The notes under the pieces are model-generated. The model ran no database searches and had not been told where the DNA came from. It worked only from the letters and a program-made list of their open reading frames with translations. Positions 45,517-64,000 of a stretch of DNA of 64,000 bases are shown here, piece by piece (within the stretch, counting starts at the first letter, position 1; the number at the start of each line of letters is the position of its first letter). Location of the stretch: the NCBI RefSeq assembly GCF_015278315.1, contig NZ_JADIJE010000001.1, forward strand, positions 62,001 through 126,000. The letters are read 5' to 3'. The DNA comes from Microbacterium ureisolvens (GTDB lineage: Bacteria; Actinomycetota; Actinomycetes; Actinomycetales; Microbacteriaceae). Made by a program: the position numbers and the translations under genes.

Positions 45517-45560
45517 CCCGCGGCATCCGTCCCGCGCCGTCCTTCCCCCAGCCCGCACCG

Positions 45561-45627
45561 CGAGAATCCATCCGGCGGACGAGACCACGGGTGACCCCCA
45601 TCGTCTCGTCCTCCGGATGGATTCTCG
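45561..45627. repeat. extragenic inverted repeat F with 25-bp arms
   Basis: Arms 45561-45585 (beginning CGAGAATCCATCCGG) and 45603-45627 (ending GGATGGATTCTCG) pair with a single mismatch; the loop is 17 bases. It lies between the transporter operon and the amidohydrolase and probably terminates the former. Architecture is like repeats A, C, D and E, but the sequence differs. Confidence 0.8.
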
Positions 45628-45646
45628 GCGAAAGGAGAACCAGCCC

Positions 45647-47302: not shown

Positions 47303-47360
47303 ACGCGGGTGCTCCGCTTCCGTCCCAGCCGCCGGCACTCCGTCGCCCGGCCGGCACCCG

Positions 47361-47390
47361 GCCGTTGAGCGAGCGCAGCGAGACGGAACG
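47361..47390. repeat. dispersed extragenic element (GTTGAGCGAGCG type), copy 1
   Basis: GCCGTTGAGCGAGCGCAGCG followed by AGACGGAACG is a common actinobacterial intergenic word. A reverse-oriented relative is at 53249-53281. It lies between the amidohydrolase and the leaderless cysteine hydrolase. Confidence 0.6.
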
Positions 47391-47417
47391 CCGCCCGCGC
47401 GCTCCTATGCTGTTGCG

Positions 47418-47978
47418 GTGACCCGACTCCTGCTCCTCATCGACATCCAGCGCGACTACTTCCCGGGAGGGCGGCATCCGCTGGTCGACACGGATGCCGC
47501 CGCCGACGCCGCCGCGCGCCTGCTGACCGCGTTCCGCTCGACCGGCGAGCGCGTCGTCCACGTGCAGCACGTGTGGGACGGGCCGGATGCCGCCTTCTTC
47601 GAGGCCGGAACGCCCGGTGTCGAGTTCGACCCGCGCGTCGCACCGGACGGCGAGGAGGAGCACGTCATCGTCAAGCACGAACCCAATGCCTTCCTCGGGA
47701 CGGGCCTGGAGTCGCTGCTGCGCGCCGCGGATCCCGACGAGATCGTGGTGGCCGGCATGATGTCGAGCATGTGCGTGGACGCGACAGTGCGCGCGGCATC
47801 GGATCTCGGGTTCCGTCTCGCGGTCGCCCAGGACGCCTGCGCCGCCCCCGATCTCGCGTACGACGGCCGCACGGTGCCCGGCGCGCAGGTGCACCTGGCC
47901 TTCATGGCGGCCCTCGACGGCACGTACGCACGGGTGGCCGACGTGGACGCGCTCGTCGGAGAGCTTGCCGCGGCCTGA
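47418..47978 (+). CDS. isochorismatase-family cysteine hydrolase
   Basis: The 186-residue hydrolase starts at GTG 47418. TATGCT (47406-47411) six bases upstream suggests a leaderless mRNA. The catalytic triad is visible: D9 in LIDIQRDYF, K86 in IVKHEPNAF and C119 in MMSSMCVDAT. Relatives hydrolyse N-carbamoyl amides, nicotinamide or ureides, which would suit amide products of the neighbouring amidohydrolase. Exact substrate unknown. Confidence 0.9.
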   Translation: MTRLLLLIDIQRDYFPGGRHPLVDTDAAADAAARLLTAFRSTGERVVHVQHVWDGPDAAFFEAGTPGVEFDPRVAPDGEEEHVIVKHEPNAFLGTGLESLLRAADPDEIVVAGMMSSMCVDATVRAASDLGFRLAVAQDACAAPDLAYDGRTVPGAQVHLAFMAALDGTYARVADVDALVGELAAA

Positions 47979-48087
47979 CGCGACAACCTGTCCGGCGGCG
48001 CGGAGAACTCCTGACAGCGGCGCCCCGCCTGATCCCCGCCGACCGGCGAGGATGGGAGCACCACACATCGCATCGGAGTTGATAACC

Positions 48088-49518
48088 GTGGGCACGACCG
48101 TCTTCGAACGACAGCGGCCGGCAGCATCCGTCGTCCAGCATTCCCTCGCCGACACGAAGCACGCGGTGTTCTGGCGCGACGACCTCCCCGAGGACCTCAC
48201 TCCCGACAGGCCGCCTCTGGTCGGCTCGCACCGCGCCGACCTGGTCGTCGTGGGAGGCGGCTACACCGGGCTGTGGACGGCACTCCTCGCCACCGAGCGA
48301 GACCCGAACGCGAAGGTCGTGATCGTCGAGGCGCAGCGCGTCGGCTGGGCGGCATCGGGGCGCAACGGCGGGTTCTGCGAGGCGAGCCTCACGCACGGGC
48401 ACGAGAACGGCATGTCGCGCTGGCCCGACGAGATGCCGACGCTCGAACGGCTCGGCGCCGAGAACCTCGACGCGATCGAGGCGTCCCAGGCCCACTACGG
48501 CATGGACTTCCAGTTCGAGCGGACCGGCCAACTGGCTCCCGCCGTCGAGCCGCACCAGGTGGACTGGCTGAAGGAGTGGGCCGCCGAAGGCGAGGACGGC
48601 GTGGTCTATCTCGACGAGGCCGAGGCTCAGGCATCCGTCCATTCGCCCACCTATCTCGCCGCCGTCTGGGAGAAGAACGCGTGCGGCATGGTGCACCCGG
48701 CACGCATGGCCGCCGAGCTCGCCCGCGTGTGCGAGGAGCGCGGGGTCGAGATCTTCGAGCGCTCGCACGTGACGGGGCTCGACACGTCGGGCCCCGGTGT
48801 GGTCGTGGTCACGGAGGAGGGCCGGGTCGCGGCATCCCGCGCCGCCCTCGGCACCAACGTCTTCCCGTCGCTGATCAAGCGCAACCGGCTCATGACCGTG
48901 CCGGTCTACGACTACGTTCTCATGACCGAGCCCCTCACCGACGCGCAGCTCGCCTCGATCGGGTGGGGGGACCGGCAGGGCATCGGCGACCTGGCGAACC
49001 AGTTCCACTACTACCGGATCAGCAAGGACAACCGGATCCTCTTCGGCGGCTACGACGCGATCTACCGCTACGGCCGTCGCCTGAACCCCGCTCACGAGCA
49101 TCGCCCCGAGTCGTGGCGCAAGCTCGCGAGCCACTTCTTCACGACGTTCCCGCAGCTGGACGGATTGCGGTTCACGCACCAGTGGGCGGGGGCGATCGAC
49201 ACGTCCACGCAGTTCACGGCGTTCTTCGGCACCGCGCGCGAGCGCCGCGTCGCCTACGCCGCAGGCTTCACCGGACTCGGGGTCGGCTCGACGCGCTTCG
49301 CCGGCGAGGTGATGCTCGACCTGCTCGACGGCGTCGAGAACGAGCGCACCGCCCTCGAGATGGTGCGCAAGCGCCCGCTGCCCTTCCCGCCCGAGCCCGC
49401 CGCGTCGATCGGCATCAACGCGACCCGCTGGTCGCTCGACCGCGCCGACCACAACCGGGGCAGGCGCAATCTGCTGCTGAAGACGCTCGACGCGCTCGGC
49501 CTGGGCTTCGACTCGTGA
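48088..49518 (+). CDS. FAD-dependent amine oxidase-like oxidoreductase (PuuB/DAO family)
   Basis: This 476-residue protein starts most plausibly at GTG 48088 after GGAG. The dinucleotide motif VVVGGGYTGLWTALL is at 53-67, followed by GRNGGFCEA, the flavin-stacking block. The C-terminal FTGLGVGSTRFAGE motif closes the FAD site. Similar enzymes oxidise gamma-glutamylputrescine or secondary amines. It is coupled to a cupin gene by a 4-nt overlap. Confidence 0.85.
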   Translation: MGTTVFERQRPAASVVQHSLADTKHAVFWRDDLPEDLTPDRPPLVGSHRADLVVVGGGYTGLWTALLATERDPNAKVVIVEAQRVGWAASGRNGGFCEASLTHGHENGMSRWPDEMPTLERLGAENLDAIEASQAHYGMDFQFERTGQLAPAVEPHQVDWLKEWAAEGEDGVVYLDEAEAQASVHSPTYLAAVWEKNACGMVHPARMAAELARVCEERGVEIFERSHVTGLDTSGPGVVVVTEEGRVAASRAALGTNVFPSLIKRNRLMTVPVYDYVLMTEPLTDAQLASIGWGDRQGIGDLANQFHYYRISKDNRILFGGYDAIYRYGRRLNPAHEHRPESWRKLASHFFTTFPQLDGLRFTHQWAGAIDTSTQFTAFFGTARERRVAYAAGFTGLGVGSTRFAGEVMLDLLDGVENERTALEMVRKRPLPFPPEPAASIGINATRWSLDRADHNRGRRNLLLKTLDALGLGFDS

Positions 49519-49865
49519 GCACGCCGTTCCGCGGGCTGACGCCGGGAATCGTGACGGATGCCGCGTCCCTCGCGCTCGACCTGAAGCCGCTGCCCGCCGA
49601 GCTGGTGGTGGAGGGCGCGCCGTCAGCCGGCTACGTCGAGCTGACGTCGGCGATCGGGATCTGGGAGCACACTCCCGGCATCTCGACCGATGTCGAAGCG
49701 GATGAGGTCTTCGTCGTGCTGTCGGGTTCTGCCACCGTCTCGTTCGACGATCCTTCGCTGTCGCCGATCGAGCTGCACGCGGGCTCGATTGCGCGCCTGA
49801 CCGCGGGGATGCGCACCGTCTGGACCGTGCGCGAGACGCTGCGCAAGCTCTACGTCGCGGGCTGA
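49515..49865 (+). CDS. small cupin-domain protein
   Basis: The 116-residue protein starts at GTG 49515 overlapping the FAD-enzyme stop (GTGA). IGIWEHTPGISTDVEADEVFVVLSG and the later ELHAGSIARLTAGMRTVWTV form the two cupin motifs, with His/Glu metal ligands reduced, as in the EutQ-like group often partnered with FAD oxidases of this family. Possibly a ligand sensor or accessory isomerase. Confidence 0.82.
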   Translation: MSTPFRGLTPGIVTDAASLALDLKPLPAELVVEGAPSAGYVELTSAIGIWEHTPGISTDVEADEVFVVLSGSATVSFDDPSLSPIELHAGSIARLTAGMRTVWTVRETLRKLYVAG

Positions 49866-49928
49866 GGCCCGTCACCGGCCGCCCCTGCTGCGGCGGACCC
49901 AGAGCTCGCACGGTCAGCGACCGTCGGG

Positions 49929-51590
49929 TCAGCGCCCCGCGGATCTCCGTACCAGCAGGGCCAGGTGCAGCGCGGTCTGGGTCTCGCCGTCATCGAGGTC
50001 GGCGCCCAGCAGCTCCTCGATGAGCGCGATGCGCTGGTAGAACACCGAGCGCGACAGGTGGGACGCGCCCGCGGCCGCGGTGCGGTTGCCCGGGTGCGCC
50101 AGCATCGCCTCGAGCACGTCGAGCAGGTCGCCCGACCGCGACAGGTCGTGGGCGATGAGCGGGGCGAGCATCCGCTCGCCGTGCTCGAGCACCCGGTGGT
50201 CGTCGCGGAGGGCGGTCACAAGTTGCATGAGCGGACGGTTCTCGGCGCGCCGCAGGTGAGGGCCGCGCCCGTTGCGGCGACGGCGTCCGCCGGCGAGGTC
50301 CACGGCCTCGTGCACCGACGCGAGGGCGGCGTCGATCCCCTCCGCCGCCCGCCCGACCGACACCGTGACCCGGTCGATCTCTGCGTGGTCGACGAGCGTG
50401 CGCACGAACGCCAGCACCGCCGCGTCGTCGAAGACGATCTCCGGCGGCAGCGACACGAGCATCGTGGTCGCGGGGGCGGCGACCCCCGTGGGCGCCGAGC
50501 CCGCCAGCGCGCGCCCGCGCAGGGCCCGGGCCGCGGCATCCGCCCGCTCCACCGCCACGGGTGCGCCCGACACGACCAGTCCATGCAGCTTCGCTCCGCG
50601 CAGGGGCAGACCCGCGGCCTCCAGCCGCGCGGCGGCGCCGCCGACGCCGGCGAAGCGACCGGCGAGCAGGCCGTCGACGAGGCGTCGGCGGCCGATGCGC
50701 GCCCACTCGTCAGCGTCGCCGTCGGCGAGGCGTCCGACCGCCAGCGCGATGGCGCCCTGCTCGAGCACCGCCGTGCGCCCGGCGGCATGCTCGGGTCCGG
50801 GCAGCGCGATGAGGTTGCCCCAGCGGATTCCGCGCGCCTCGACCGGGACGATCAGCCAATCGTCCGCGCCCGCCGTCGCGCCGCGCTCGCGTCGCTGCTC
50901 CGATCGGCGGTGGGCGGAGCGAGACCGCAGCTCCCACTCGGTGAAGAGCTCCTCCTCCATGGCGAGCGGCACTTCGGCGGCCACCACCTCGTAGCCGAGG
51001 TTCTCCAGCACGATCGGCGCACCGAGCGTCTGCGCCAGCTGGTGCACGATGAAGTCGGCCGGCGAGCCGCGGAGCACGAGCGCGGTGAATCGCTCACGGA
51101 CTTCGTCGCGCGCTCGCAGCGCGTCCGTCTGTCCCGTGATGATGCGGCTGTGGACGGCCTCGGTGAGGGTCACGAACTTGACCTCGCGGTGCAGCACCAC
51201 CAGCGCGAGGCCTCGCGCGCGGGCCGCCTCGACCACGACCGCAGGAACGTAGCGGTAGTGGGTGCCGAGCTCGAGCACGAGGCCTGACAGGCCGGCATCG
51301 GCGAGCTCGTCGATGAACCGCCGCAGATCGGCCGGTTCGACCGGCCATGACGATCCGGTCGACAGCAGCAGCTCGCCGCCGTCGAGCAGCCGCGCCACTC
51401 CCGCGCTGTCGGACACGTGCAGCCACCGCACGCGTGCCTCGAGCGAATCGTCTCCGACGAGCACCTCGGGCACACCGTGTGCGACCGCATCGAGGGCGAT
51501 CACCTCACGCACGGTGGGGAGGGTCTCGTCTGCTGATCTATCGGCCGGACGATCCGTTTGGATCGCCCGATCTTCGCGACGGTCGGGCAC
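49929..51590 (-). CDS. PucR-family transcriptional regulator
   Basis: The 553-residue regulator probably starts at GTG 51590 (preceded by GAAGAGG). An N-terminal PucR domain begins TVREVIALDAVAHGVPEVLVGD. A GGDEF-like central region and a C-terminal HTH (LLDVLEAMLAHPGNRTAAAGASHLSRSVFYQRIALIEELLG) complete the family architecture. PucR proteins respond to purine, ureide or amine catabolic signals. It is divergent from the second semialdehyde dehydrogenase / aminotransferase pair, which it probably controls. Confidence 0.88.
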   Translation of the reverse strand: MPDRREDRAIQTDRPADRSADETLPTVREVIALDAVAHGVPEVLVGDDSLEARVRWLHVSDSAGVARLLDGGELLLSTGSSWPVEPADLRRFIDELADAGLSGLVLELGTHYRYVPAVVVEAARARGLALVVLHREVKFVTLTEAVHSRIITGQTDALRARDEVRERFTALVLRGSPADFIVHQLAQTLGAPIVLENLGYEVVAAEVPLAMEEELFTEWELRSRSAHRRSEQRRERGATAGADDWLIVPVEARGIRWGNLIALPGPEHAAGRTAVLEQGAIALAVGRLADGDADEWARIGRRRLVDGLLAGRFAGVGGAAARLEAAGLPLRGAKLHGLVVSGAPVAVERADAAARALRGRALAGSAPTGVAAPATTMLVSLPPEIVFDDAAVLAFVRTLVDHAEIDRVTVSVGRAAEGIDAALASVHEAVDLAGGRRRRNGRGPHLRRAENRPLMQLVTALRDDHRVLEHGERMLAPLIAHDLSRSGDLLDVLEAMLAHPGNRTAAAGASHLSRSVFYQRIALIEELLGADLDDGETQTALHLALLVRRSAGR

Positions 51591-51654
51591 CGTGGTCGCC
51601 TCTTCTTCTCTGACAGGCTGGGACCCGTCCAGCCTAAAGGATCGCCAAACGATC
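51550..51654. promoter_or_regulatory. two GATC-GTTTGG-type palindromes near the pucR / mmsA2 divergent promoter
   Basis: CGATCCGTTTGGATCG (51550-51565) is a perfect palindrome inside the start of pucR. GATCGCCAAACGATC (51640-51654) has GATCG/CGATC arms and lies 25 bases before the dehydrogenase ATG. The two share the words GATC and CAAAC/GTTTG, so both may be PucR operators, one of them autoregulatory. Confidence 0.55.
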
Positions 51655-51678
51655 TGTCCGACACCCCGAGAGGGATCC

Positions 51679-53239
<1,561 letters not shown>

Positions 53240-53248
53240 CCGGCCCCG

Positions 53249-53281
53249 CGTTTCGACTCGCTTCGCTCACTCAACGACCGG
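53249..53281. repeat. dispersed extragenic element (GTTGAGCGAGCG type), copy 2, reverse orientation
   Basis: CGTTTCGACTCGCTTCGCTC followed by ACTCAACGACCGG is the reverse complement relative of the 47361 element. It lies just after the dehydrogenase stop. Confidence 0.6.
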
Positions 53282-53327
53282 AATGGGCGCACCCACAGGC
53301 AACCGCCGTCCGACCGAAGGACTCCAC

Positions 53328-54737
53328 ATGACCGACACCCTCGCGCGCGCGGCCGTCTACACCGACCAGGCCGGCACGACCGGACCGCTGCCCGATCCGG
53401 AGGCCGACGCGCGCGTCCGGGCGGATGATCGCCGTCACGTGTTCCACTCGTGGAGCGCGCAGGCGCTCATCGATCCGCTGCCGATCGCGGCCGGCGAGGG
53501 CTCGACCTTCTGGGACTACAGCGGCAACGCGTACCTCGATTTCAGCTCGCAGCTGGTGAATCTCAACCTGGGGCACCAGCATCCGGATCTCGTCGCGGCG
53601 ATCCAGCGCCAGGCCGGGCGTCTCGCGACCATCCAGCCCTCCATGGCCAACGATGCACGCGGCGAGCTCGCGCGCCGCATCGCCGCGGTGGCCGGCGACG
53701 GGTTCGAGAAGGTGTTCTTCACCAACGGCGGGGCCGACGCGAACGAGAACGCCGTGCGTATGGCGCGCCTGGTGACCGGGCGCCGCAAGGTGCTGTCGAT
53801 GTATCGCAGCTACCACGGCAACACGACCACCGCGATCTCGCTGACCGGCGACCCGCGCCGCTGGCCGAACGAGCCCGGCGACGGCTCGACGGCGAAGTTC
53901 TTCGGCCCCTATCCGTACCGCTCGGCGTTCCATTCGGCCAGCGCCGAGGAGGAGACCCAGCGCGCGCTCGAGCACCTGGAGCAGACGATCGTGCTCGAAG
54001 GCGCCACCACGATCGCCGCCATCGTCATCGAGACCATCGTCGGCACCAACGGCGTGCTGGTGCCGCCGCCCGGATACCTCGCCGGCGTGCGGGACCTCTG
54101 CGACCGCTACGGCATCGTCTACATCGCCGACGAGGTCATGGTCGGCTTCGGCCGCGTCGGCGAGTGGTTCGCCTTCCAGGCGTTCGACGTGCGGCCCGAC
54201 CTCATCACCTTCGCGAAGGGCGTGAACTCGGGCTACGTGCCGCTCGGCGGGGTCGTGATCGCCGATCGCATCGCCTCCCACTTCGACACCGTGTCGTTCC
54301 CCGGCGGGCTCACCTACTCCGGCCACCCGCTCGCCTGCGCCGCCGGCGTCGCCACCTTCGAGGTGTTCGAACGCGACGGCATCCTCGACCGCGTGCGCGA
54401 CCTCGGATCGCGCGTCGTCGAGCCGCGGCTGCGCGACCTCGCGTCGCGGCATCCGTCCGTCGGCGACGTGCGCGGGATGGGGCTGTTCTGGGCCATCGAG
54501 CTCGTCAAGGACCGCGAGACCCGCGAGCAGCTCGTGCCGTTCAACGCGAGCGGGACGGATGCCGCACCTCTGGCCGCCGTCGCCGCGGCGTGCAAGCGGG
54601 ACGGCGTGTGGCCGTTCACCCACTTCAACCGCGTGCACGTCGCTCCCCCGCTGATCATCACCGAGGACGAGCTGGTGCGCGGCCTCGACGTCATCGATCG
54701 CGCGCTCTCGGCGGCCGACGAGTACGCCGCCCGCTGA
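53328..54737 (+). CDS. class III PLP omega-aminotransferase, second copy
   Basis: The 469-residue aminotransferase starts at ATG 53328. PLP Asp is D268 in YIADEVMVGFGRVG and Schiff-base Lys K297 in LITFAKGVNSGY. It aligns with the 8205 gene throughout (HVFHSWSAQ, DFSSQLVN, FTNGGADA), with a longer N-terminus and C-terminus. It is downstream of the frameshifted dehydrogenase, mirroring the intact pair in region 1 but in the opposite gene order. Probably polyamine- or beta-amino-acid-directed. Confidence 0.88.
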   Translation: MTDTLARAAVYTDQAGTTGPLPDPEADARVRADDRRHVFHSWSAQALIDPLPIAAGEGSTFWDYSGNAYLDFSSQLVNLNLGHQHPDLVAAIQRQAGRLATIQPSMANDARGELARRIAAVAGDGFEKVFFTNGGADANENAVRMARLVTGRRKVLSMYRSYHGNTTTAISLTGDPRRWPNEPGDGSTAKFFGPYPYRSAFHSASAEEETQRALEHLEQTIVLEGATTIAAIVIETIVGTNGVLVPPPGYLAGVRDLCDRYGIVYIADEVMVGFGRVGEWFAFQAFDVRPDLITFAKGVNSGYVPLGGVVIADRIASHFDTVSFPGGLTYSGHPLACAAGVATFEVFERDGILDRVRDLGSRVVEPRLRDLASRHPSVGDVRGMGLFWAIELVKDRETREQLVPFNASGTDAAPLAAVAAACKRDGVWPFTHFNRVHVAPPLIITEDELVRGLDVIDRALSAADEYAAR

Positions 54738-54876
54738 CGACGGTCCGCCCCCCTATTCCGCTTCCGGACATTTGGCAAGCCCCGTGCATCCAAGCCATCC
54801 GATGCGCGGGAATGAATAGGTGAGGGATGAGGTTATCCCTTTACTCGGCACCTTTCCGGGGCCGCAGGAGGGGACA

Positions 54877-55284
54877 GTGGGCAAGAACTACATCGACATC
54901 GAGAACGACCAGGGCGAGACGCTGCGCTATCGCAAGCATGTCAATGGTCGTGGCCTCATCGCGCATGGAGCGAAGGTGCACCCGAGCGCCATCGTCGAAG
55001 CGGGGGCGTATGTCGAACCGGGGGTTCAGATCGCCGCAGGCGCGCATGTCGGCCGTGGCGTGTGGGTGGAGTCGGATGCCGTGATCGGCCCCGACGCCGA
55101 GATCGCGCCGCACGCCCACATCGGGCCGCGCGCCGCGATCGGGCCGCGCGCGAAGATCGGTGTCCGCACGCAGGTCGGACACGACGCCCGCGTCGCCGGA
55201 GGCTCGCTCATCGGCGACGACGAGACGATCGCCGACGGCGAGCGCGTCGCCACCGACAAGCGCGGACTCCGCCTGGCGGCCTGA
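54877..55284 (+). CDS. left-handed beta-helix (hexapeptide repeat) protein
   Basis: This 135-residue protein starts at GTG 54877 with AGGAGG 5 nt upstream, preferred over in-frame upstream starts. After MGKNYIDIENDQGE, residues about 30-115 are a row of hexapeptide-type units (VHPSAIVEAGAYVEPGVQIA, IGPDAEIAPHAHIGPRAAIG), predicting a short beta-helix trimer. No acyltransferase catalytic His is obvious, so function is unknown. The stretch 54738-54876 before it holds no gene. Confidence 0.75.
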   Translation: MGKNYIDIENDQGETLRYRKHVNGRGLIAHGAKVHPSAIVEAGAYVEPGVQIAAGAHVGRGVWVESDAVIGPDAEIAPHAHIGPRAAIGPRAKIGVRTQVGHDARVAGGSLIGDDETIADGERVATDKRGLRLAA

Positions 55285-55320
55285 CTCTCCACCCCGTCCG
55301 AGATGAGGCGGTCTCCCGGC

Positions 55321-55340
55321 GCGCCGGCTGTCGCCGGCGC
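55321..55340 (+). terminator. terminator hairpin after the hexapeptide gene
   Basis: GCGCCGGC (55321-55328), loop TGTC, GCCGGCGC (55333-55340): a perfect 8-bp GC stem 36 nt after the stop. Confidence 0.7.
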
Positions 55341-55389
55341 CTGTGGACAGACGGGACGCGGCGCACGGCCGCCTGACTAGCCTGTCGCC

Positions 55390-56073
55390 GTGAGAGACGA
55401 CTCCCGCCCAGGATCGCGCCGCCGGCATCGCTGGGATGTGGCCATCGTAGGAACAGTGGTCGTCGGCGTCGTCGTCTTCGTTCTGGCGATCGCCTGGCCC
55501 GGCGAACCCGGCACGGGCGCCGACGCGCCGTGGCAGGACGACAGCCGGCTGCACCGCCGGATGCCTCTGCCGCGCGTGGTTCCGTCGCCCACCGCCGTGG
55601 AGCCCGCACCGGGGGGCGACCAGGCCGGCATCCCGCCGCGCCCCGCGCACGCGTTCGCGCTGACCGTCACGCACGTGTACGACGGCGACACGATCGAGGC
55701 GCAGGTGGTGCAGCCGAACGACATCGTGACGACGACCGCCCCGATCCGCATCCGTCTCATCGGCATCGACACCCCCGAGGGGACGCCGATGCCCGAGTGC
55801 TGGGCCGACGAGGCTCGCACGCACCTGTCGGAGCTGCTGCCCGAGGGGTCGACGTTCTGGGCCGCACCGGATGTCGACACCTGGGACGACTACGACCGCC
55901 GCCTCCTCCACGTCTGGACCTACGACGGCCGCTTCGTGAGTCATGAGCTCATCGCCGCCGGCGACGCCGAGGTGATGCGCATCGAGCCGAACGTCGCGTA
56001 CGCCGACGTGATTGCGGCGGCGCAGGCCGAGGCCGAGGCATCCGGAATCGGTCTGTGGACCGCGTGCCGCTGA
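55390..56073 (+). CDS. membrane-anchored thermonuclease (SNase-like)
   Basis: This 227-residue protein starts at GTG 55390; TAGCCT (55378-55383) six bases upstream suggests a leaderless mRNA. One membrane helix (about 17-36) is followed by a Pro-rich linker and the nuclease domain. Catalytic and calcium residues are visible: VYDGDTIE (D98, D100, T101), IRLIGIDTPE (R122, D127, T128, E130) and DDYDRRLLH (R170/R171). It should degrade DNA/RNA outside the membrane. Confidence 0.9.
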   Translation: MRDDSRPGSRRRHRWDVAIVGTVVVGVVVFVLAIAWPGEPGTGADAPWQDDSRLHRRMPLPRVVPSPTAVEPAPGGDQAGIPPRPAHAFALTVTHVYDGDTIEAQVVQPNDIVTTTAPIRIRLIGIDTPEGTPMPECWADEARTHLSELLPEGSTFWAAPDVDTWDDYDRRLLHVWTYDGRFVSHELIAAGDAEVMRIEPNVAYADVIAAAQAEAEASGIGLWTACR

Positions 56074-56076
56074 GAC

Positions 56077-56475
56077 TCAGGCGAAGAGGAACAGCACGAA
56101 CCCGATGAGCGGCAGCGTCCCCTGGATCAGCGCCGCCCGCAGGTACCGCAGCCCCGTCGTGATCAGCACCAGCGCCGCCGCCACCATCGACCCGAGGCTG
56201 AACAGCACGAGCGCGAGGCCGGCCGCCCGCACCGGTGCCGCGTCGGCCCCGGCATAGATCAGCACCAGGCCGATGACGACGCCGATCGCGAGGAACAGGT
56301 TGTAGAAGCCCTGGTTGTACGCCATCGGCTTCGTGATGTCGGCGGCCGCCTGGTCGGCCACGCCGAACCGTTTCCAGATCTTCGGCTGCGTCCACTGCAC
56401 GCTCTCCATCACGAAGATGTACACGTGCAGCAGCGCCGCCAGCGCCGCGAAGACCGTCGCCAGGATCACCACCAT
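56077..56475 (-). CDS. DUF1304 membrane protein
   Basis: The 132-residue protein has four hydrophobic segments: about 3-25, 50-70, 75-98 and 110-130. SVQWTQPKIWKRFGV and AYNQGFYNLFLAIG are typical DUF1304 words. The minus-strand TATCGT at 56482-56487, six bases before the ATG, suggests a leaderless mRNA. Only 3 bases separate it from the convergent nuclease stop. Function unknown. Confidence 0.88.
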   Translation of the reverse strand: MVVILATVFAALAALLHVYIFVMESVQWTQPKIWKRFGVADQAAADITKPMAYNQGFYNLFLAIGVVIGLVLIYAGADAAPVRAAGLALVLFSLGSMVAAALVLITTGLRYLRAALIQGTLPLIGFVLFLFA

Positions 56476-56511
56476 GAGCGAACGATAGCGCCCCCGGATA
56501 CGCTGATCGGT

Positions 56512-57264
56512 ATGGCGAAGGGCGGGTCGCGCGCGAACGGACGGGGGCGGGATGCCGGGCCACGGCGCTCCGGTGCCGCGGGCGGCTCCGCGGCGAAGGG
56601 CAGGTCACCGAAGCCGCGTCGCCCGCAGCCGTCGCCCGGTCCGTCGCCCGTGCCCACGGAGCCGGAGCTTCCGGCCACGTTCACTCTCGGCGCGATACCC
56701 GGAGCCACGCCCGGCAAGTGGATCGACACCTGGAACGAGCGGATGCCGCGCACGGCGCTCGAACTCGTCGCCGTGCCGGTCGCCGATCAGCGGCGGGCGC
56801 TCCTGGGGGGCGAGGTCGACGCCGCGCTCGTGCGGCTGCCGATCGAGAATGACGGGCTCCACGTCATCCCCCTGTACGAAGAGGTCCCGGTCGTCGTGTG
56901 CGCACGCGACTCGCATCTGACCGCGGCCGAGGAGCTCGACACGGCCGACCTCGCGGGCGAGGTGCTCATCGTTCCGGACGACGACGTGCTCGGCATCCGT
57001 GTCCCCGGCACACAGGCCCCCCGCTTCGCGCCACCGGCCGACACCGCCGACGCCATCGCGACGGTCGCAGCGGGCGTCGGGATCGTCGTCGTGCCGATGT
57101 CGCTCGCGCGCCTTCACCGCCGCAAAGACACGGAGTACCGCCCGCTGCTCGACGGACCGACGTCGACCGTGGCGCTCGCATGGGTCGCCGACCGGACGAC
57201 GCCTGCGGTCGACGCGTTCGTGGGGATCGTCCGAGGCCGCACCGCCAACTCGTCGCGGGGCTGA
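56512..57264 (+). CDS. LysR-type substrate-binding domain protein lacking the HTH
   Basis: This 250-residue protein starts at ATG 56512; TACGCT (56499-56504) seven bases upstream suggests a leaderless mRNA. The first about 55 residues are Gly/Arg/Lys/Pro-rich (MAKGGSRANGRGR) with no helix-turn-helix. From FTLGAIPGATPGKWIDTWNERMP to the end it is a LysR co-inducer domain. It may bind a ligand and act through protein contacts, or touch DNA only through its basic tail. I know of similar HTH-less forms in related actinobacteria. Confidence 0.78.
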   Translation: MAKGGSRANGRGRDAGPRRSGAAGGSAAKGRSPKPRRPQPSPGPSPVPTEPELPATFTLGAIPGATPGKWIDTWNERMPRTALELVAVPVADQRRALLGGEVDAALVRLPIENDGLHVIPLYEEVPVVVCARDSHLTAAEELDTADLAGEVLIVPDDDVLGIRVPGTQAPRFAPPADTADAIATVAAGVGIVVVPMSLARLHRRKDTEYRPLLDGPTSTVALAWVADRTTPAVDAFVGIVRGRTANSSRG

Positions 57265-57423
57265 GCGTGTCCTCGAGCGAAGCAGGACGGAACGCGGTGG
57301 GGAGCGTCGAGCACCGGTGAGACGAAGGTGAGGGGCGCCGCCCCAGTTCCCATGCGGCACCCCTCGAGGATCGGCGAGACCCGCAGCCCGATCTGCGTCC
57401 CCATTCCGGTCTCCCGCGCTCCT

Positions 57424-57442
57424 GCCCGACCCCCCGTCGGGC
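57424..57442. terminator. hairpin between convergent LysR-like and CHAT genes
   Basis: GCCCGAC (57424-57430), loop CCCCC, GTCGGGC (57436-57442). A second inverted repeat ATCAGGA/TCCTGAT (57462-57489) lies nearer the CHAT stop. The rest of 57265-57509 holds nothing recognisable. Confidence 0.6.
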
Positions 57443-57509
57443 GGCGCGAGCCGTTCCGATGATCAGGAGTCCCCGGCATCCGTCCTGATACACACCCGCC
57501 GAAGATTTC

Positions 57510-59999
57510 TCAGAATCCTGCGCCGTGCACCTGGAACGGCGCGACGATGCCGGTGCGGGCGGATGCCTCCGCAAGTGCGACCGACGGCGGCGCACCCGCG
57601 GCGAGGCCCTCGTGCATCGCCCCGAGCAGCTCGCACGCGTCGTCGTCGGCGACGATGACGGGCGCGGCGACGACGCTGCGCGCGCCGGCGTGAAGCCAGA
57701 TCCTCGTCATGCCGACGGCTTCCTCGCCCCAGCGCACCGACGAGCGTCCCACCTCGCACGCCGAGAGGACGACGGTATCGGGAACCTTCTCGATGAGGTC
57801 GATGTCGTAGCCGAAGAGCGCGCCATCGGCCAGCTCGAGACCGGAGAACATCGGGTTGTCGGCCGCATGCCGCCCGTGGGCGGCGATGTGCAGGACGTCG
57901 GCGCGAGTGGCGAGCGCCGTCACCTCCGCGACTGTCGAGGCCTGACCGTGGAGCACCTCCGCGCGCCCCCAAGCCGCGGAGCCGATGACGACCTCTTCCT
58001 CCCCGCGCGCGACCCGGGGCCCGGCCGCGAAGCCGGCCGATGCCGGCGCTGGCGAGGCGCGGGAGCGGGCATGGATCCACGCCGTCACCGACGACGCGAC
58101 AGACAGAGGGCGTTGCCGCAGCGCGGGGAGCATCGCCCACGGAACGCCGGACAGGACGCCCGGAGCGGTGATGAGGATCCGTTCGGCCTGAGTGAGCAGA
58201 TCGCCGACGGGGACGACGAGGACCCTCGACAGGGCGGCGAGCCGATCCGCCAGTCCGCGGCGGATCACGCCGGCCATCGGACCTTCGACGACGGTGGCCG
58301 CCATGTCGAGATCGGCCCGAAGGCCGCGAAGCGCGGAGCGTGCGGCCTGCCAATCCAGCGCCACCAGTTCGGACCGCTCGTTCGAGACAGCCAGGGCCGC
58401 CAGCTGGGAGCCATCGAAGATGTAGGTGACCAGCACCTCGCCATCTCGCAGCGTCGCCACCGCGTCGCGAAGAGAGGCCCGGCCCCGCCGCTCACCGGCG
58501 GCCGTCTGCGACCATTGCCGTTGCCGAGCCCGGTCGCCCAGGAGCGCCGCACGGGGGCCGGAAAGCCAGTCGCCGTCGGGCTGCGCCGTCCTGAGGATGC
58601 GAAGCTCGGCGAGGTCGGCCGCGAGCTCCGGATCGGGGGGAGGCCGTAGCGGGACGACGAACCCGGTGACCGACCGTGCGCGCTCGGACCAGTCGAACAC
58701 CGCCGCGTGGCTGCCTGATCGCAGCGCCGACGCGAGACCGGTCGTCGCGAGCCCGACACCACGCATGGACGCGGAGACCTGAAGGTCGAGGCTGCCGAAG
58801 GATCGACGCGTCTGGTCGAGCAGGTCGAGGCCCGCCGCCGCGTGACGACGGGTGTCTCGTTCCCGGCCGTCGGCGGCCGCACGTGCCGCGCGCATCTCGT
58901 GCGCGAGCAGCCCCACCTCCAGCGGCGTCCGCGGCCCGATCCGAGCGGCGACCACCTCGGCGCGGTGATTCCTGCGGATCCGCGCGAGCGCGTCTGTGAG
59001 CCGGAGCGCCTCAGCCTCCGAGTCGAATCCGTGCGCACGAAGTGCGGCAACGACCTCCGCCACCCTCGAAGGAGCGGGCAGGCGCCCGACCCGGACCGGC
59101 GCACCGGATCGGTCGATCCGACCCACTGCGAGCCGCGCACGCAGCCCGATGGCCTGCGCTCTCACCGCCCACCCGGTGCTCCCGATCGATGTGAAGCGAC
59201 GCGCCGACGCGGAGGCGACGCGCGCCGCGCGCGACGGATCATGGCTCAGCAACGACCTGGCAAGGTGGTAGTCGGCCGTCGCCCGATCGCGCGGCGCGCG
59301 ATGTCGACCGAACGCGACCGAGACCGCGGAAAGGCTGCGTTCGGCCTCCGTCACCAGCCCTGCCTCGCGGAGTACCTCAGCACGGTCCAATTCGTTCACC
59401 GCTGCCCACATCGCCGACTCGTCATCGAGCGGCTCACGCACGGACTGCATGGTCTGGAGCGCGGCGACGAGGTCGCCCGCCAGCATCAGGGTGTAACCGC
59501 GGTTATGGACAGCCAGGTCGGCCTCCGTGGTCATGCCGGCTGCGCGATACGCCTCCTCCGCGGCGACGAGGTCCGCCATGGCCTCTTGCAGGCGACCTCG
59601 CTGCATGTCCACCAGACTGCGGTTGATCCGCATGTTCGCCTGGCGGACGGGTTGGTCACTGAGCCCCCTGATGCTCTTGTCAAGCCATCCGGCTGCATCG
59701 TCGAGCAGCCCGCGCTCCAGCGCCAGCGATCCCAGCTGTCCCTGCAGCTGCGCGATCGCGGCATCCGACAGACCCTCACGGCCGAGCGCCTCGAGACACA
59801 GACTCTCTCCGCCGTCGACATCTCCCAGGCGGGCGAGAACATAGGCGGTCGTGCCGGCGATCCGTGCACCGAGCTCGATATCGCCCTCCACCTCGGCGCG
59901 CGCGGCACCGGCGGCCAGCACTCGCCGCGCATCGACATATCTGCCGCGCGTGGCAAGATGCCATCCCCGCTGGTAGAGCTGTTCCCCCGAGACCGCCAC
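57510..59999 (-). CDS. TPR-CHAT caspase-like protease
   Basis: This 829-residue cytoplasmic protein starts at GTG 59999. The N-terminal half is a row of helical TPR-like repeats (YQRGWHLATRGRYVDARRVLA onward to about residue 420). The C-terminal CHAT domain has the clan CD dyad: H708 in HIAAHGRHAADNP and C748 in VVLSACEVG, with the conserved ADGALFGYDI between them. CHAT proteases cleave after specific basic or other residues once a partner activates them. In type III-E CRISPR a TPR-CHAT cleaves a sigma-factor inhibitor. Here an ECF sigma gene, a small partner and a subtilase lie upstream in the same operon. Confidence 0.9.
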   Translation of the reverse strand: MAVSGEQLYQRGWHLATRGRYVDARRVLAAGAARAEVEGDIELGARIAGTTAYVLARLGDVDGGESLCLEALGREGLSDAAIAQLQGQLGSLALERGLLDDAAGWLDKSIRGLSDQPVRQANMRINRSLVDMQRGRLQEAMADLVAAEEAYRAAGMTTEADLAVHNRGYTLMLAGDLVAALQTMQSVREPLDDESAMWAAVNELDRAEVLREAGLVTEAERSLSAVSVAFGRHRAPRDRATADYHLARSLLSHDPSRAARVASASARRFTSIGSTGWAVRAQAIGLRARLAVGRIDRSGAPVRVGRLPAPSRVAEVVAALRAHGFDSEAEALRLTDALARIRRNHRAEVVAARIGPRTPLEVGLLAHEMRAARAAADGRERDTRRHAAAGLDLLDQTRRSFGSLDLQVSASMRGVGLATTGLASALRSGSHAAVFDWSERARSVTGFVVPLRPPPDPELAADLAELRILRTAQPDGDWLSGPRAALLGDRARQRQWSQTAAGERRGRASLRDAVATLRDGEVLVTYIFDGSQLAALAVSNERSELVALDWQAARSALRGLRADLDMAATVVEGPMAGVIRRGLADRLAALSRVLVVPVGDLLTQAERILITAPGVLSGVPWAMLPALRQRPLSVASSVTAWIHARSRASPAPASAGFAAGPRVARGEEEVVIGSAAWGRAEVLHGQASTVAEVTALATRADVLHIAAHGRHAADNPMFSGLELADGALFGYDIDLIEKVPDTVVLSACEVGRSSVRWGEEAVGMTRIWLHAGARSVVAAPVIVADDDACELLGAMHEGLAAGAPPSVALAEASARTGIVAPFQVHGAGF

Positions 60000-60070
60000 A
60001 CAGCAATGATGGACCCCCGAGGGGGCGAGTGCGACTCGCTCACGGTGCGGTCCGGCGCGGCGGAGAGCCT

Positions 60071-61966
60071 CTACTCCCCGTCGCCGCGCTGCCCGGCCGC
60101 CCCGCCGGACTCCGGCTTCTTCATCGACCGGTCACGGGCGCGGATCTTCTTCAGCGCCTCCCCCGCTGCAGAGCTGCTCGAAGAGACGACGGAGGCGGAC
60201 GGGTTCATGAGCGACTTCGCAAGCTCGCCTGCGATCATCCCGGAGACATAGGGCGCTGCGAAGCTCGTGCCGCTCCAGATCGCGAAGCCTCCGGAATGGT
60301 CGTCGGGGTCGAGGCTCCACCGCTTCCGGTCGATGCTGTCGGCTCGCGTCCCGGGCTGAATGCCTCCTTCGAGCTTCGGGAACGTCGACACCACCGAGGT
60401 TCCGGGTGCGTACACGGTGATCCAGTCGCCGATGTTGCTGTAGAGCGCGACCGATGTCAGCGACGGGTTCAGAGCCCCGACGGCGATATGGTCCTCGAGG
60501 TCTTCCGGCTCCTCGAGCCCCAGCTCCGGATCGCCTTTGGCCGACAGGGCCGCCGGAAAGCTCGGCCGGGCAGTCGCGTCGTTGCCGGCGGAGCAGACCA
60601 CGACACAGCCCTTGCCCCGCAGGCGCACGAGCGCTTCGTGCAGCCGGCCACTGTAGAGCCCGTCCTCGGGCGTCTCGTGGTAATAGCCGAGCGAGAGATT
60701 CACGACGTCCACGTGATTTCCGCGCGGCCGATCGATCCAGACAGCGAGTTCCTCGAGTGATTCGATCAGCTCGTGCTCGAGCACCATCCCGTTGCTGTCC
60801 GCGACGCGGATGGCGAGGATGTCGGCATCGGGGCACGCCTGGTGCACGACGCCGCACACCATGGTGCCATGCCCGGCCGCGCCATCCAGGAAGCCGTCGA
60901 GGGGGCCGGACTGGTCGCCGTGCACCTCCGGGTCTGTGAGAGGGTCGTCGACCCCGATGACCCTCCCCGGCCCCTTCGTGGGAGACGGGATGTTCCGACG
61001 CACGATCACGTCACCCTGTACGCGCGGGTCGTCGAACCACTCGTGCGCCCCGCACCCGGTGTCGACGACGGCGACGACGGGCCGTCGGCCGCCGGTGAGC
61101 TCCGCGCGGAAGGGAGGAGCGCCGACGTACGAGACGACCTCGAGCCCTCCGCCACCCGGGTACGCGTACCCGGCGGTGCCCGACGGGTTGGTCATCCCGT
61201 GGGGGTTGGTCATCCCATGGGGGTTGGTCATCCCATGGGGGTTGGTCATCCCGTGCGGGTTCGTCATGCCATGTGGATTGAGTCCGATCGGGTCGACTGT
61301 CAGCACATGGTCGAGGCTCACGTTCTTCAGCGCGGCCTTCATCCGGTCGATGTCCTCGCGGGAGACGACAGGCTCGGGCACGCCGGCATCGCCCCCGCGC
61401 TCTTGGGCCTGGGGGCCGGGAGCCTGCCGGCGGGTGGATTCCAGTGGCTCACCGGCCGCGGAGCGGTCGGCGGCTCGTGCCACCAGGCGACGGGCACGCC
61501 GGCGACGTGAGCGGGCCGGGTCCGCGTCCTCTTCCTCCTCGCCGAGGCCCCGCGACGTGCTCGCTCCCTCGTACTTCTCGAGTCGTTCCGCGACCGCATC
61601 GATGACGATCAGCCGCCGCGCGTGCTGCAGCAGCCGCCACGCGTCGACCACGGGCACGGGCTCGTCGTCGCGGGTCTCGCTGGGCACCTGGATGATGTTC
61701 GCGGTGGTGATCTGGCCGAAGTCGGAGGCCTTGTCGACGACGGGCGGATCGACTTCGATCTCCCAGCCGAGCTCCTTGCCCGCGGCCTTCAGCGCGGTGA
61801 GGGCGTCGTTGCGGTCATCGCCGAAGATCAGGAGATGTCCGGGCGCATAGGCCGATGGGAACGCCTCGACGCCGGGGGCGGTGTGCCATCGGGGGTCGAG
61901 CCCGACGCCGCGCGGGGCTCCAGCCTTCGCGCGATCCCGCCAGCGACGATCCGCTCCATTGGACAT
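60071..61966 (-). CDS. cytoplasmic S8 (subtilisin-like) serine peptidase with NPHGMT repeats
   Basis: This 631-residue protease starts at ATG 61966 after GGGAG. No signal peptide or membrane helix is seen, unusual for the family. Residues 1-140 may be a pro-domain (GHLLIFGDDRNDALTALKAA). An acidic-basic linker (143-165) and five exact NPHGMT repeats (230-259) precede the catalytic domain. The triad is D302 (VVDTGCG), H366 (GHGT) and S568 (SGTSFAAP), with N462 in the oxyanion hole. It lies between the 155-residue partner and the TPR-CHAT protease in one operon. Confidence 0.9.
   Translation of the reverse strand: MSNGADRRWRDRAKAGAPRGVGLDPRWHTAPGVEAFPSAYAPGHLLIFGDDRNDALTALKAAGKELGWEIEVDPPVVDKASDFGQITTANIIQVPSETRDDEPVPVVDAWRLLQHARRLIVIDAVAERLEKYEGASTSRGLGEEEEDADPARSRRRRARRLVARAADRSAAGEPLESTRRQAPGPQAQERGGDAGVPEPVVSREDIDRMKAALKNVSLDHVLTVDPIGLNPHGMTNPHGMTNPHGMTNPHGMTNPHGMTNPSGTAGYAYPGGGGLEVVSYVGAPPFRAELTGGRRPVVAVVDTGCGAHEWFDDPRVQGDVIVRRNIPSPTKGPGRVIGVDDPLTDPEVHGDQSGPLDGFLDGAAGHGTMVCGVVHQACPDADILAIRVADSNGMVLEHELIESLEELAVWIDRPRGNHVDVVNLSLGYYHETPEDGLYSGRLHEALVRLRGKGCVVVCSAGNDATARPSFPAALSAKGDPELGLEEPEDLEDHIAVGALNPSLTSVALYSNIGDWITVYAPGTSVVSTFPKLEGGIQPGTRADSIDRKRWSLDPDDHSGGFAIWSGTSFAAPYVSGMIAGELAKSLMNPSASVVSSSSSAAGEALKKIRARDRSMKKPESGGAAGQRGDGE
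61190..61279 (-). repeat. five 18-base tandem repeats encoding NPHGMT in the S8 gene
   Basis: The DNA unit (about 18 bases, one word per NPHGMT) is repeated five times at 61190-61279, with a degenerate sixth (NPSGTA). Base conservation between units is higher than needed for the peptide alone, so expansion is recent. Confidence 0.85.
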
Positions 61967-62042
61967 GTCTTCTCCCTCTTCACATGCGGAATCCGCGGCC
62001 CCCAGGCCGCGGCATCCCGATCGGTACTGCTTCGAAACTGCG

Positions 62043-62510
62043 TCAGACTTCGAACTGCGGGGTCTGGAAGTCGCGCAGCGCGCCGTCGGCGTCGCGCACC
62101 ACCAGGCGGAGGCGCGCCACCCCTGGCGTGACCTCCTCGAAGGCGAAGCGTCCGTGCTCGCCCGGTTCGGCCGACCACTCGCGGTCGCCCTGAAGCAATC
62201 GGATGGCCAGAGCCTCGCCATCCACCCATCCGTCCACGCGCCGGCCGCCGTCCTCAGTGGCGGTGACGTGCAGCAGAACGGTGGTCGTGCCGTCGCTGAA
62301 CTGCAGGGTCGCCGTGTCGGCCTCGCCGCGCACTGCGGCGAGCGTGCCTTCCACGAGCGTCAGCAGCGCGTACTCGCGCGACAGGTCCTCGACGGCGACC
62401 GCGGCGACCATGCGGTCGACCAGATCGGCCGGCACGGGATCCACGTCCTCCCACATGCGGCGCATGCGTGCGAAAAGCGCGGCGTCGGCCGCGAAGTCCT
62501 CAGTTGCCAT
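62043..62510 (-). CDS. 155-residue sigma-factor partner / possible CHAT substrate
   Basis: The start at ATG 62510 overlaps the sigma stop by 11 nt and follows GAGGTGACGACG. The N-terminal third is helical (FARMRRMWEDVDPVPADLVDRMVAAVAVEDL), a pattern I recall in actinobacterial proteins next to ECF sigma genes. The C-terminal two-thirds predicts a beta-sandwich (LLHVTATEDGGRRVDGWVDG ... FAFEEVTPGVARLRL), like carboxypeptidase-regulatory domains. It could be an anti-sigma factor, an adaptor, or the protein cleaved by CHAT. No named family is certain. Confidence 0.75.
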   Translation of the reverse strand: MATEDFAADAALFARMRRMWEDVDPVPADLVDRMVAAVAVEDLSREYALLTLVEGTLAAVRGEADTATLQFSDGTTTVLLHVTATEDGGRRVDGWVDGEALAIRLLQGDREWSAEPGEHGRFAFEEVTPGVARLRLVVRDADGALRDFQTPQFEV

Positions 62511-63117
62511 CGTCGTCACCTCTCCACCCGTCTCCCTCGAGAACGGCGCGCAGTTTTGCGAGGCAGCGCTGGCGGGTCGGTCCGATCGATCCGATCGGCA
62601 TCGCCAGATCTTCGGCGATGCGGGCATAATCGGGGCGGTCCTCGAACGCGACGATCCGCAGCAGGCGCTGGCATCGGTCGTTGAGCGTGGCCACCGCGGT
62701 CCACAGGCGACGGTTCTCGTCGTCGTGCGCGGCGGTCTGCTCGGCGGATTCGTGGACCGGAAGGTGCGGTTCGAGCGACTCGGCCTCCGTCGCATCGGCA
62801 CGCCGATGCTGTTTGCCGACCCGCCACGCCTCACGGCGTGCGCACATCGTGAGCCATCCCGACACCGCCAGGGGGTCGTTGATGCTCTCGTGACGGCGCA
62901 CCAGCGTCAGCCACGTCGTCTGCACGACGTCCTGCGCGAGCGCGTGGTCGAGGCCGTACGCCCGGACGACGTGCCACAGCGGCGGCGTCATCAGGCGGAC
63001 GAGCTCATCCATCGCACGACTGTCACCTTCGCGCCACCGCATGAAGAGTGCGGCGGCGCGCTCCCATCGCGCCGGCTCCACGGAGTCGACGGATGCCTCG
63101 GCGCCCGCGTGCGTCAT
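62500..63117 (-). CDS. ECF-type RNA polymerase sigma factor
   Basis: The 205-residue sigma factor starts at ATG 63117 (another ATG at 63126 is possible). Region 2 (MRWREGDSRAMDELVRLMTPPLW then DVVQTTWLTLVRR) and region 4 (RIVAFEDRPDYARIAEDLAMPIGSIGPTRQRCLAKLRA) are complete. No transmembrane anti-sigma factor follows; the gene instead overlaps the 155-residue protein of the protease operon, so release by proteolysis or direct partner control is likely. Confidence 0.9.
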   Translation of the reverse strand: MTHAGAEASVDSVEPARWERAAALFMRWREGDSRAMDELVRLMTPPLWHVVRAYGLDHALAQDVVQTTWLTLVRRHESINDPLAVSGWLTMCARREAWRVGKQHRRADATEAESLEPHLPVHESAEQTAAHDDENRRLWTAVATLNDRCQRLLRIVAFEDRPDYARIAEDLAMPIGSIGPTRQRCLAKLRAVLEGDGWRGDDDGN

Positions 63118-63242
63118 AGCGCCCATTCTGTCCACACCATGCCCGAGCGCGGTAGTACCCGTTTGATACACGGATCTCGGACCGACATCGATGATTTCAG
63201 CCGTCTCGCAGGGTTCGCCGGGCGGGGACCTAGACTGCGTGC

Positions 63243-63983
63243 ATGACGACCGCGCCGTTGCTCTATGTCTGCGTGCGCCCGCAGCAGGGTGCGGCCGCCG
63301 CGGAGTACGAGTCTTTCCGCACCGCCATGCGCCTCGACGAGGCCGCAGTGGCGCACCTCGACCTCGTGCGCGAGCCGCTGCCGGCCGACGCTTTCGAGCG
63401 CTACGCCGGGTTCCTGGTGGGCGGCAGCCCCTTCAACGTCACCGATCCGGAGTCGACCAAGACCGACGCGCAGCGCCGCCTCGAAGCCGACCTCGCTCGC
63501 ATCGCAGAGCGCGCCGCAGCAGGCGACGGACCGGCCGCCCTGTTCACGTGCTACGGGATCGGCATCGCCACGCGCACGCTCGGCGGCACGGTCAGCCGGG
63601 CCTTTCCCGAAGACACCGGCCCGGTGGCCGTCGAGCTGACGCCCGAGGCTCGCGCCGACCCGCTCTTCGGCGGGCTCGCCACCCGGTTCACGGCGCTCAC
63701 GGCCCACAAGGAGGGCACGGGCGAGCTGCCGGCTGGCGCGGTCCTGCTGGCGAAGAACGACGGATGCCCCGTCCAGGCGTACCGCGTCGGCGACCGGCTC
63801 TACGCGACCCAGTTCCATCCCGAGCCGACGACGACTGCGTTCACCGAGCGCATGGCCGTGTACCGCGACGACGGGTACTTCGATTCGGCGGACTACGACG
63901 CGATCGCCGGGCGCGTGCTCGCGGCATCCGTCACCGAACCGGCGCGTCTGCTGCGCGCGTTCGCCGCCCGCTTCGCGGCCTGA
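63243..63983 (+). CDS. class I glutamine amidotransferase domain protein
   Basis: This 246-residue protein is divergent from the sigma operon. Nucleophile C103 is in FTCYGIGIA, and H192/E194 in TQFHPEP complete the triad. It resembles stand-alone GATase-1 proteins annotated as GMP-synthase-like, whose amide acceptor is unknown. TAGACT (63231-63236) six bases before the ATG suggests a leaderless mRNA. Confidence 0.88.
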   Translation: MTTAPLLYVCVRPQQGAAAAEYESFRTAMRLDEAAVAHLDLVREPLPADAFERYAGFLVGGSPFNVTDPESTKTDAQRRLEADLARIAERAAAGDGPAALFTCYGIGIATRTLGGTVSRAFPEDTGPVAVELTPEARADPLFGGLATRFTALTAHKEGTGELPAGAVLLAKNDGCPVQAYRVGDRLYATQFHPEPTTTAFTERMAVYRDDGYFDSADYDAIAGRVLAASVTEPARLLRAFAARFAA

Positions 63984-64000
63984 GCCGCGGGACCCAGGTC

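Follow-up and report, generated by a model that had tools for sequence, protein, structure and literature searches.

The closest described systems to the locus analyzed here are the gene neighborhoods of the extracytoplasmic function (ECF) sigma factors of group ECF54 and the protease branch of type III-E CRISPR (clustered regularly interspaced short palindromic repeats) systems. For ECF54, the accessible part of a 2022 review (PMC8999054, citing Casas-Pastor 2021 and Huang 2015) gives carboxypeptidase, subtilase, and CHAT-domain proteins as the genomic context and proposes proteolysis. In type III-E, according to the accessible part of PMC10028731, Csx29 cleaves Csx30, Csx30 inhibits CASP-sigma, and Csx29 is RNA-activated through Cas7-11. 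Here, we analyze a minus-strand operon of the soil bacterium Microbacterium ureisolvens that encodes an ECF sigma factor, a small partner protein, a subtilase, and a tetratricopeptide repeat (TPR)-CHAT protease. The operon lies in a 64,000-nucleotide (nt) stretch of contig NZ_JADIJE010000001.1 (positions 62,001 to 126,000; hereafter the window, in whose numbering coordinates are given). Its four parts form one co-inherited, conserved module, to which a promoter motif, a structured RNA, and a tandem peptide seem to belong.

The ECF54-type set of neighbors is present at the locus: as in the ECF54 context of PMC8999054, insofar as that text is accessible, the window sigma factor is accompanied by a protein that is carboxypeptidase-regulatory-like in relatives, a subtilase, and a CHAT protein, and our partner is probably the 'carboxypeptidase' listed there. 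Since this review already names the gene set and proposes proteolysis, the operon itself is not new. Within the open-licence full-text literature, as far as its texts were accessible, the set was named only there, and the accessible part of the review differs from the present locus in mentioning neither peptide repeats nor an RNA. The RNA, the repeats, the promoter pair, and the partner as an anti-sigma factor were not found in the open-licence literature, where the repeats were not searched by name and which leaves subscription journals mostly uncovered.

The first-pass annotation had described four overlapping or closely spaced minus-strand genes, and this arrangement was confirmed. The gene for the sigma factor of 205 amino acids (aa) (62500..63117; Pfam Sigma70_r2, 1.2e-8; an orthologue model matches ECF sigmas) overlaps by 11 nt with that of the 155-aa partner (62043..62510), which combines a helical N-terminus with a beta sandwich and is a candidate soluble anti-sigma factor. 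After a gap of 76 nt comes the 631-aa intracellular subtilase of family S8 (60071..61966; Peptidase_S8, 3.8e-25), with its catalytic triad kept, and after a further 71 nt the 829-aa TPR-CHAT protease, which starts with GTG (57510..59999; CHAT, 6.5e-24). The Pfam matches bear out the domains assigned earlier to the sigma factor, the subtilase, and CHAT. The switch had been suggested to be intracellular, and by hydropathy none of the four contains a membrane segment (highest 19-residue Kyte-Doolittle mean, 1.48). Judged by the sigma factor, the nearest named relative is M. hibisci (99%).

The conserved synteny of the TPR-CHAT protease and the small partner, to which the annotation had looked, was seen in two samples. 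Searching named genomes for short exact sigma stretches, which favors close relatives, gave 67 loci, mostly from Microbacterium but also from Nocardioides, Cellulomonas, and Phytohabitans. All four genes were present in 62 of the 67, the contigs of the remaining five ending too early, and 61 of the 62 complete loci shared the same order and strand; the exception (L080) was due to an extra reverse-frame subtilase hit. In a phylum sample of 396 genomes, the partner occurred at 62 places, 60 of which were read in 69 loci (our own genome and G106 were left out, and several contigs were short). The sigma gene was adjacent to the partner on the same strand at 53 of these 60 places, CHAT lay within 6 kb at 47 and the subtilase at 41, and all three were nearby at 38, in ten gene orders. 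Counted by genome, 48 had both the partner and CHAT, 3 CHAT only, 4 the partner only, and 341 neither (Fisher p ~3e-53); one of the four partner-only genomes (G464) has a CHAT fragment by profile search (L182). Furthermore, the pairwise distances of the four proteins correlated over 97 loci, with r of 0.81–0.95 compared with at most 0.22 in 300 permutations (a frame-shifted assembly, L083, was excluded here and from the protein sets). Because related genomes are not independent samples, what these figures demonstrate is an association and not how strong it is per event.

Some genomes split the set between two places, with sigma and partner at one and CHAT and subtilase at the other (e.g., G235 and G267). 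At two loci of family f16 (L118, L169), a single sigma gene is surrounded by two or three copies of the partner gene and by two consecutive CHAT-subtilase pairs. One candidate, a weak partner-like match (L015), was rejected, as none of the other module genes was there. Our own genome encodes a second CHAT-domain protein (G000:C1:36130-36918; L002, L017) about 83 kb from the operon, and in the 19 kb around it no sigma factor, partner, or subtilase of the module was found.

A promoter motif occurs twice at the locus. The upstream copy, P1 (TGTATCA-N16-CTC; 63145..63170, minus strand), precedes the sigma gene, and the pattern [TC]GTATCA-N16/17-CTC was found upstream of sigma in 66 of the 67 named loci. 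At distant loci, a looser form (GTATCA-N16-18-[CG][TC]C) was present in 12 of 52, compared with a mean of 0.44 and a maximum of 3 in 200 random-segment draws; this is the most telling of six patterns tried, all of which exceeded random (GTATCA alone, for example, 13/52 vs. 0.99). The second copy, P2 (57467..57492, minus strand), bears the same motif and starts 17 nt past the CHAT stop codon. Such a repetition just after CHAT is common: 49 of 63 sequences (the window and L018–L079) have at least two sites. In two of these 49 (L037 and L043), the second motif has no RNA behind it, and both were dropped from the UGGGG-motif count given below.

Behind P2 lies a conserved structured RNA (57366..57458, minus strand; a covariance-model match), which is newly described here and tied to the module. 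The conserved region ends in a strong GC hairpin (57330..57365, minus strand), a possible terminator without a U tract; a consensus scan found no classical terminator. The length of the region varies from 88 to 107 nt in 24 class A loci, and the differences are not multiples of three, which argues against a protein-coding region. The full alignment gave only the closing hairpin and another alignment a scattered fold; two helices, also labeled P1 and P2, appeared after trimming to 11 class A rows, and neither of two alignments of the complete trimmed class A set (24 rows) recovered them. In the 11 rows, 90.9% of the helix cells were paired compared with 78.6% after shuffling, and covariation was 0.400 compared with 0.192; neither value was reached in 500 shuffles, and helices slid along the alignment gave at most 0.189. 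In four of five measures, none of the 500 shuffles came up to the alignment, and in the fifth, the number of pairs changed on both sides, 14 did. In 25 model-fitted rows, whose alignment leans towards the structure, the values were 91.0% vs. 73.7% for pairing and 0.425 vs. 0.151 for covariation (slid versions at most 0.173). A third helix, P3, appeared in single folds and was left uncounted, and the class B rows were too uniform for covariation (3 of 25 pairs).

Where is this RNA found? The 11-row model, run on 71 sources, gave 25 matches at E ≤ 1, namely its own 11 rows and 14 others. Eight of the latter reached E ≤ 0.01; the window matched at 0.41, and one match was a second copy in L034. 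All 25 lay behind a CHAT gene and none elsewhere, and about 46 sources, including the class B loci, were without a match. Across 149 genomes of the genus, model R2 had 23 matches in 22 genomes (our own included, its RNA being part of the model) and model R3, for class B, had 28 matches in 28 other genomes. The RNA was thereby seen in 50 of the 80 genus genomes with CHAT and in none of the 69 without it, and each of the 51 matches was on the strand and contig of CHAT and 3' to it, at a distance of up to 111 nt in 46 cases, 450 nt in one, and 1.5–10.4 kb in four. Since relatives of the scanned genomes went into R2 and R3, these figures test the place of the RNA and are not an independent discovery. 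Outside the genus (54 loci), R2 matched twice (E 0.059 and 0.31), each time within a coding gene, and both matches were taken as chance. Rfam 15, run on 56900-63400, had no match at the RNA, its sole match up to E 1 lying elsewhere (58233-58271, E 0.7).

The longer CHAT-RNA distances, in G570, G574, G632, and G682, hint at insertions just behind CHAT. In Microbacterium allomyrinae (L034:13345-16530), a tandem duplication has left a second partial CHAT, a third promoter motif, and the second RNA copy.

The RNA is rich in a short G motif. At 50 loci, [CT]TGGGG[AGC] has a mean count of 2.2 per 230 nt, compared with 0.06 in 1626 composition-matched windows, and in single folds 55% of the motif G are unpaired compared with 29% of other G; the RNA in the window holds one motif, below this mean. 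Titrating RNAs of the CsrB/RsmZ type carry several hairpins sharing a short G-rich motif, the CsrA-binding motif being GGA. The present RNA resembles them in its several hairpins and short G-rich motif but differs in that the motif is UGGGG, not GGA. Elsewhere in our own genome (L220; G000:C1:355813-355838), a further promoter-motif match is followed by a stretch, CACTGGGGAAACGC, that resembles the RNA motif; this may be chance or point to a further RNA of the regulon.

In the subtilase, the catalytic residues Asp302, His366, and Ser568 (L016 numbering) are kept in 104, 105, and 104 of 105 proteins. At the junction of its prodomain and catalytic domain, the window subtilase carries five tandem copies of NPHGMT (61190..61279, minus strand), a peptide whose code occurs in our own genome only in these five copies. 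Such a repeat, newly described here, stands upstream of the catalytic domain in 78 of 115 subtilases, with a unit of 5–8 aa (NPVGGKT, NPFKG, NPFSRT, NPYHST, FPFHSA, NPAYQA, and others); no repeat was seen in the subtilases read from loci of f18 and of the Streptomyces-like f5. The unit is near-uniform inside one protein and differs between species. Between neighboring copies, 1137 codon pairs were identical, 601 synonymous, and 68 residue-changing, and this likeness at the protein level despite drift of the DNA points to selection on the peptide. A natural guess is that the repeat serves as a docking or cutting site.

In the CHAT protease, the His-Cys dyad, called intact in the annotation, is so: none of the 64 CHAT proteins aligned departs from His704, His708, or Cys748. 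The predicted structure of the protease was of high confidence (predicted local distance difference test, pLDDT, 91; predicted template modeling score, pTM, 0.90), and its top solved match by both Foldseek and VIA was Csx29 in the Cas7-11/Csx30 complex (8eey_B; E 4.8e-14; Z 27.7 over 592 residues, root-mean-square deviation (rmsd) 12.6). Separase came close behind by Foldseek and had Z 25 by VIA, and several TPR proteins fell within a few Z units; since rows within one Z unit are tied, the safe reading is 'Csx29-like or separase-like'. The model also matches DdvA, a transmembrane anti-sigma factor (8rot and 8rw5; Foldseek E 2.9e-11 and 5.4e-11), although the window CHAT has no membrane segment and the match may rest on the TPR units only. 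Its TPR half aligns with pheromone-bound Rap (8rsv; Z 27.4, 340 residues, rmsd 4.3), and the module carries short repeated peptides, a parallel to the RRNPP peptide receptors (Rap, NprR); however, other TPR proteins (APC/C subunits, APPBP2) score equally against this half.

The earlier statement that type III-E uses a TPR-CHAT protease to cut the partner of an ECF-like sigma factor agrees with the accessible part of PMC10028731. Judged against that text, the present locus shares with type III-E a TPR-CHAT protease, the window model of which best matches Csx29, and an ECF-like sigma factor. On the other hand, the window partner has 155 aa compared with 565 for Csx30, a subtilase is added, and the tested stretch (44000-64000) contains no CRISPR-like array, its only close direct-repeat family being the NPHGMT repeat. 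In this stretch, the parts sit together without a CRISPR-like array, as had been claimed. No Cas7-11 (gRAMP) was found among the ten window genes scanned, no genome-wide search having been made. The parallel lies in the logic and in the CHAT fold, and it does not make the locus a member of type III-E.

Is the partner an anti-sigma factor? The window partner (P0003) has no Pfam domain match of its own, an anti-sigma domain included, and 15 of 28 aligned partners match CarboxypepD_reg weakly (best 0.00045). Eight partners of family f18 have a longer N-terminus with the motif D-W-x-E-G-R-L-P-x-x-E-A, followed by a P-P motif, and no cysteine in the aligned N-terminal stretch. Three of these eight weakly match anti-sigma Pfam models (zf-HC2, 0.015 and 0.038; RskA_N, 0.043), below the curated cut-offs. 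When compared with 177,635 PDB sequences, the f18 profile had two matches at E ≤ 10, NOMO2 over the beta sandwich (2.8e-6) and the anti-sigma factor RskA over the N-terminus (E 0.79). A read-through model of sigma and partner, made for an orthologue (pLDDT 86), showed two helices and a beta sandwich in no confident arrangement; its matches by Foldseek and VIA were mostly sigma rows, and the beta sandwich alone came near CrdA (Z 9.1). We therefore describe the partner, newly in this respect, as a small protein of two domains whose anti-sigma signature is weak, and from these weak matches we infer that it may be a zincless derivative of an anti-sigma factor. As in RskA-SigK and other ECF-anti-sigma pairs, the partner adjoins its sigma factor, and the long orthologues weakly match RskA and RskA_N; it differs in lacking a membrane segment, in its beta-sandwich C-terminus, and in the cysteine-free N-terminal stretch of the long orthologues.

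Could these parts work together as a switch? Starting from what is observed, namely a conserved module with intact active sites, a shared promoter motif, and a structured RNA tied to the module, we consider it on balance probable that the locus encodes an ECF54-type switch that is cytosolic and under protease control and that drives its own operon and the RNA. The small overlapping partner would hold the sigma factor as a soluble, zincless anti-sigma factor. A signal would be sensed by the TPR half of CHAT, upon which CHAT and the intracellular subtilase would cut the partner and free the sigma factor; the two proteases may also activate one another via the subtilase tandem peptide. The free sigma factor would then transcribe its own operon from P1 and the UGGGG-rich structured RNA from P2, and the RNA would form a post-transcriptional part of the output, either titrating an RNA-binding protein or pairing with C-rich messages. 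An intracellular proteolytic switch controlling transcription had been suggested before; that part is retained in view of the co-inherited module, the lack of membrane segments, the weak anti-sigma marks in long partner orthologues, and the Csx29-like CHAT, while its extension to phage defense is not supported.

Several observations weigh against such a switch. The anti-sigma signal is weak, falls below the cut-offs, and lies in a stretch that is absent from the window's own partner, and the pTM of the sigma-partner model is 0.45, which speaks neither for nor against their contact. The resemblance of the CHAT model to DdvA means that CHAT itself could touch the sigma factor. At 8 of the 60 phylum places, sigma and partner stand on long contigs with neither CHAT nor subtilase within 6 kb; six of these eight genomes have CHAT elsewhere, and in two (G528 and G532) none was detected. 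Our own genome contains five motif sites, of which two are in this locus, and the other three equal the three given by a reversed-pattern control, so that no wider regulon is shown. The RNA was seen in one genus only, in part of its CHAT genomes, and single folds gave z values of −3.06, −2.76, −0.22, 0.19 (the window), and 1.02, i.e., the window copy folds no better than its shuffles and only two of five do.

Some of these points lead to another explanation, in which the sigma factor itself is degraded by the proteases until these are halted by a signal, and the partner serves as an adaptor or sensor instead of an anti-sigma factor. This comes close to the literature proposal for ECF54 and would suit a partner with no anti-sigma domain match and a modeled complex that is not confident. 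We nevertheless consider it rather unlikely, in view of the anti-sigma-like marks of the long orthologues and of the persistent adjacency of sigma and partner where the proteases have moved or separated from them, which is what a direct pair should show. A quite different possibility is a CRISPR-free, type III-E-like phage defense, in which infection activates CHAT, and the released sigma factor turns on defense or shutdown genes. The logic does resemble Csx29-Csx30-CASP-sigma as given in the accessible part of PMC10028731, and the best match of the CHAT model is Csx29. Furthermore, the subtilase matches the PADLOC families 'subtilase' (2e-10) and IetS (4.5e-5), and an SNase homologue 1.4 kb beyond CHAT (55390-56073) matches PADLOC candidate C3a212 (5.7e-20). 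This nuclease, however, was the only one of six tested window neighbors with a PADLOC match (the flanks of other loci were not scanned). CHAT itself matched only BovA (0.025), and the partner and the sigma factor matched nothing in PADLOC to E 0.1. In a plasmid search made with the partner and CHAT, not with the subtilase and sigma factor, the partner had no match and CHAT matched 4 records. The phage search, made with the sigma factor only, gave one record, MT838002.1 (L194; 'Bacteriophage sp.', human feces), with all four genes on 7.5 kb; being an unverified, unannotated fecal scaffold, it is more likely a bacterial contig. The wide, tree-like inheritance, with CHAT in 80 of 149 genus genomes, is more like that of a housekeeping or stress module than of a sporadic defense gene. 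The tie to phage defense is consequently not supported, and we regard this explanation as improbable.

The role of the RNA can also be read differently from that in the protease-controlled switch. Instead of being an output of the sigma factor, it might switch the module on or hold it back, for instance by binding CHAT in the way that guide and target RNA act as ligands of Csx29, or it might be a structure for processing and terminating the operon message at its 3' end. Its constant place 3' of CHAT on the same strand, mostly at short distance, would fit this, as would the activation of Csx29 by RNA through Cas7-11 in the accessible part of PMC10028731. It is doubtful, though, given that the sigma factor's own promoter motif stands in front of the RNA and that the four distant copies stay conserved, as a 3' untranslated region would not have to. 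A bolder, speculative form of the switch itself, which we put forward as a long shot, is a self-contained intracellular protease-peptide-RNA circuit: the pheromone-receptor-like TPR half of the Csx29-like CHAT would read the subtilase peptide and arm a two-protease cascade, the soluble anti-sigma factor would be destroyed, and the freed sigma factor would make the newly described G-rich-loop RNA as a main output. If true, this circuit would be related to the type III-E sigma switch but free of CRISPR, and its peptide recognition would be species-specific.

Many ECF groups are without a worked-out mechanism. With two intracellular proteases, a candidate anti-sigma factor, a defined promoter motif, and the RNA as a ready reporter, the proposed ECF54 proteolysis becomes directly testable. 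If the protease-controlled switch is true, the logic by which a protease releases a sigma factor in type III-E would also exist free of CRISPR in Actinomycetota, accompanied by a conserved RNA family that is new and a peptide tag that changes fast but is internally uniform.

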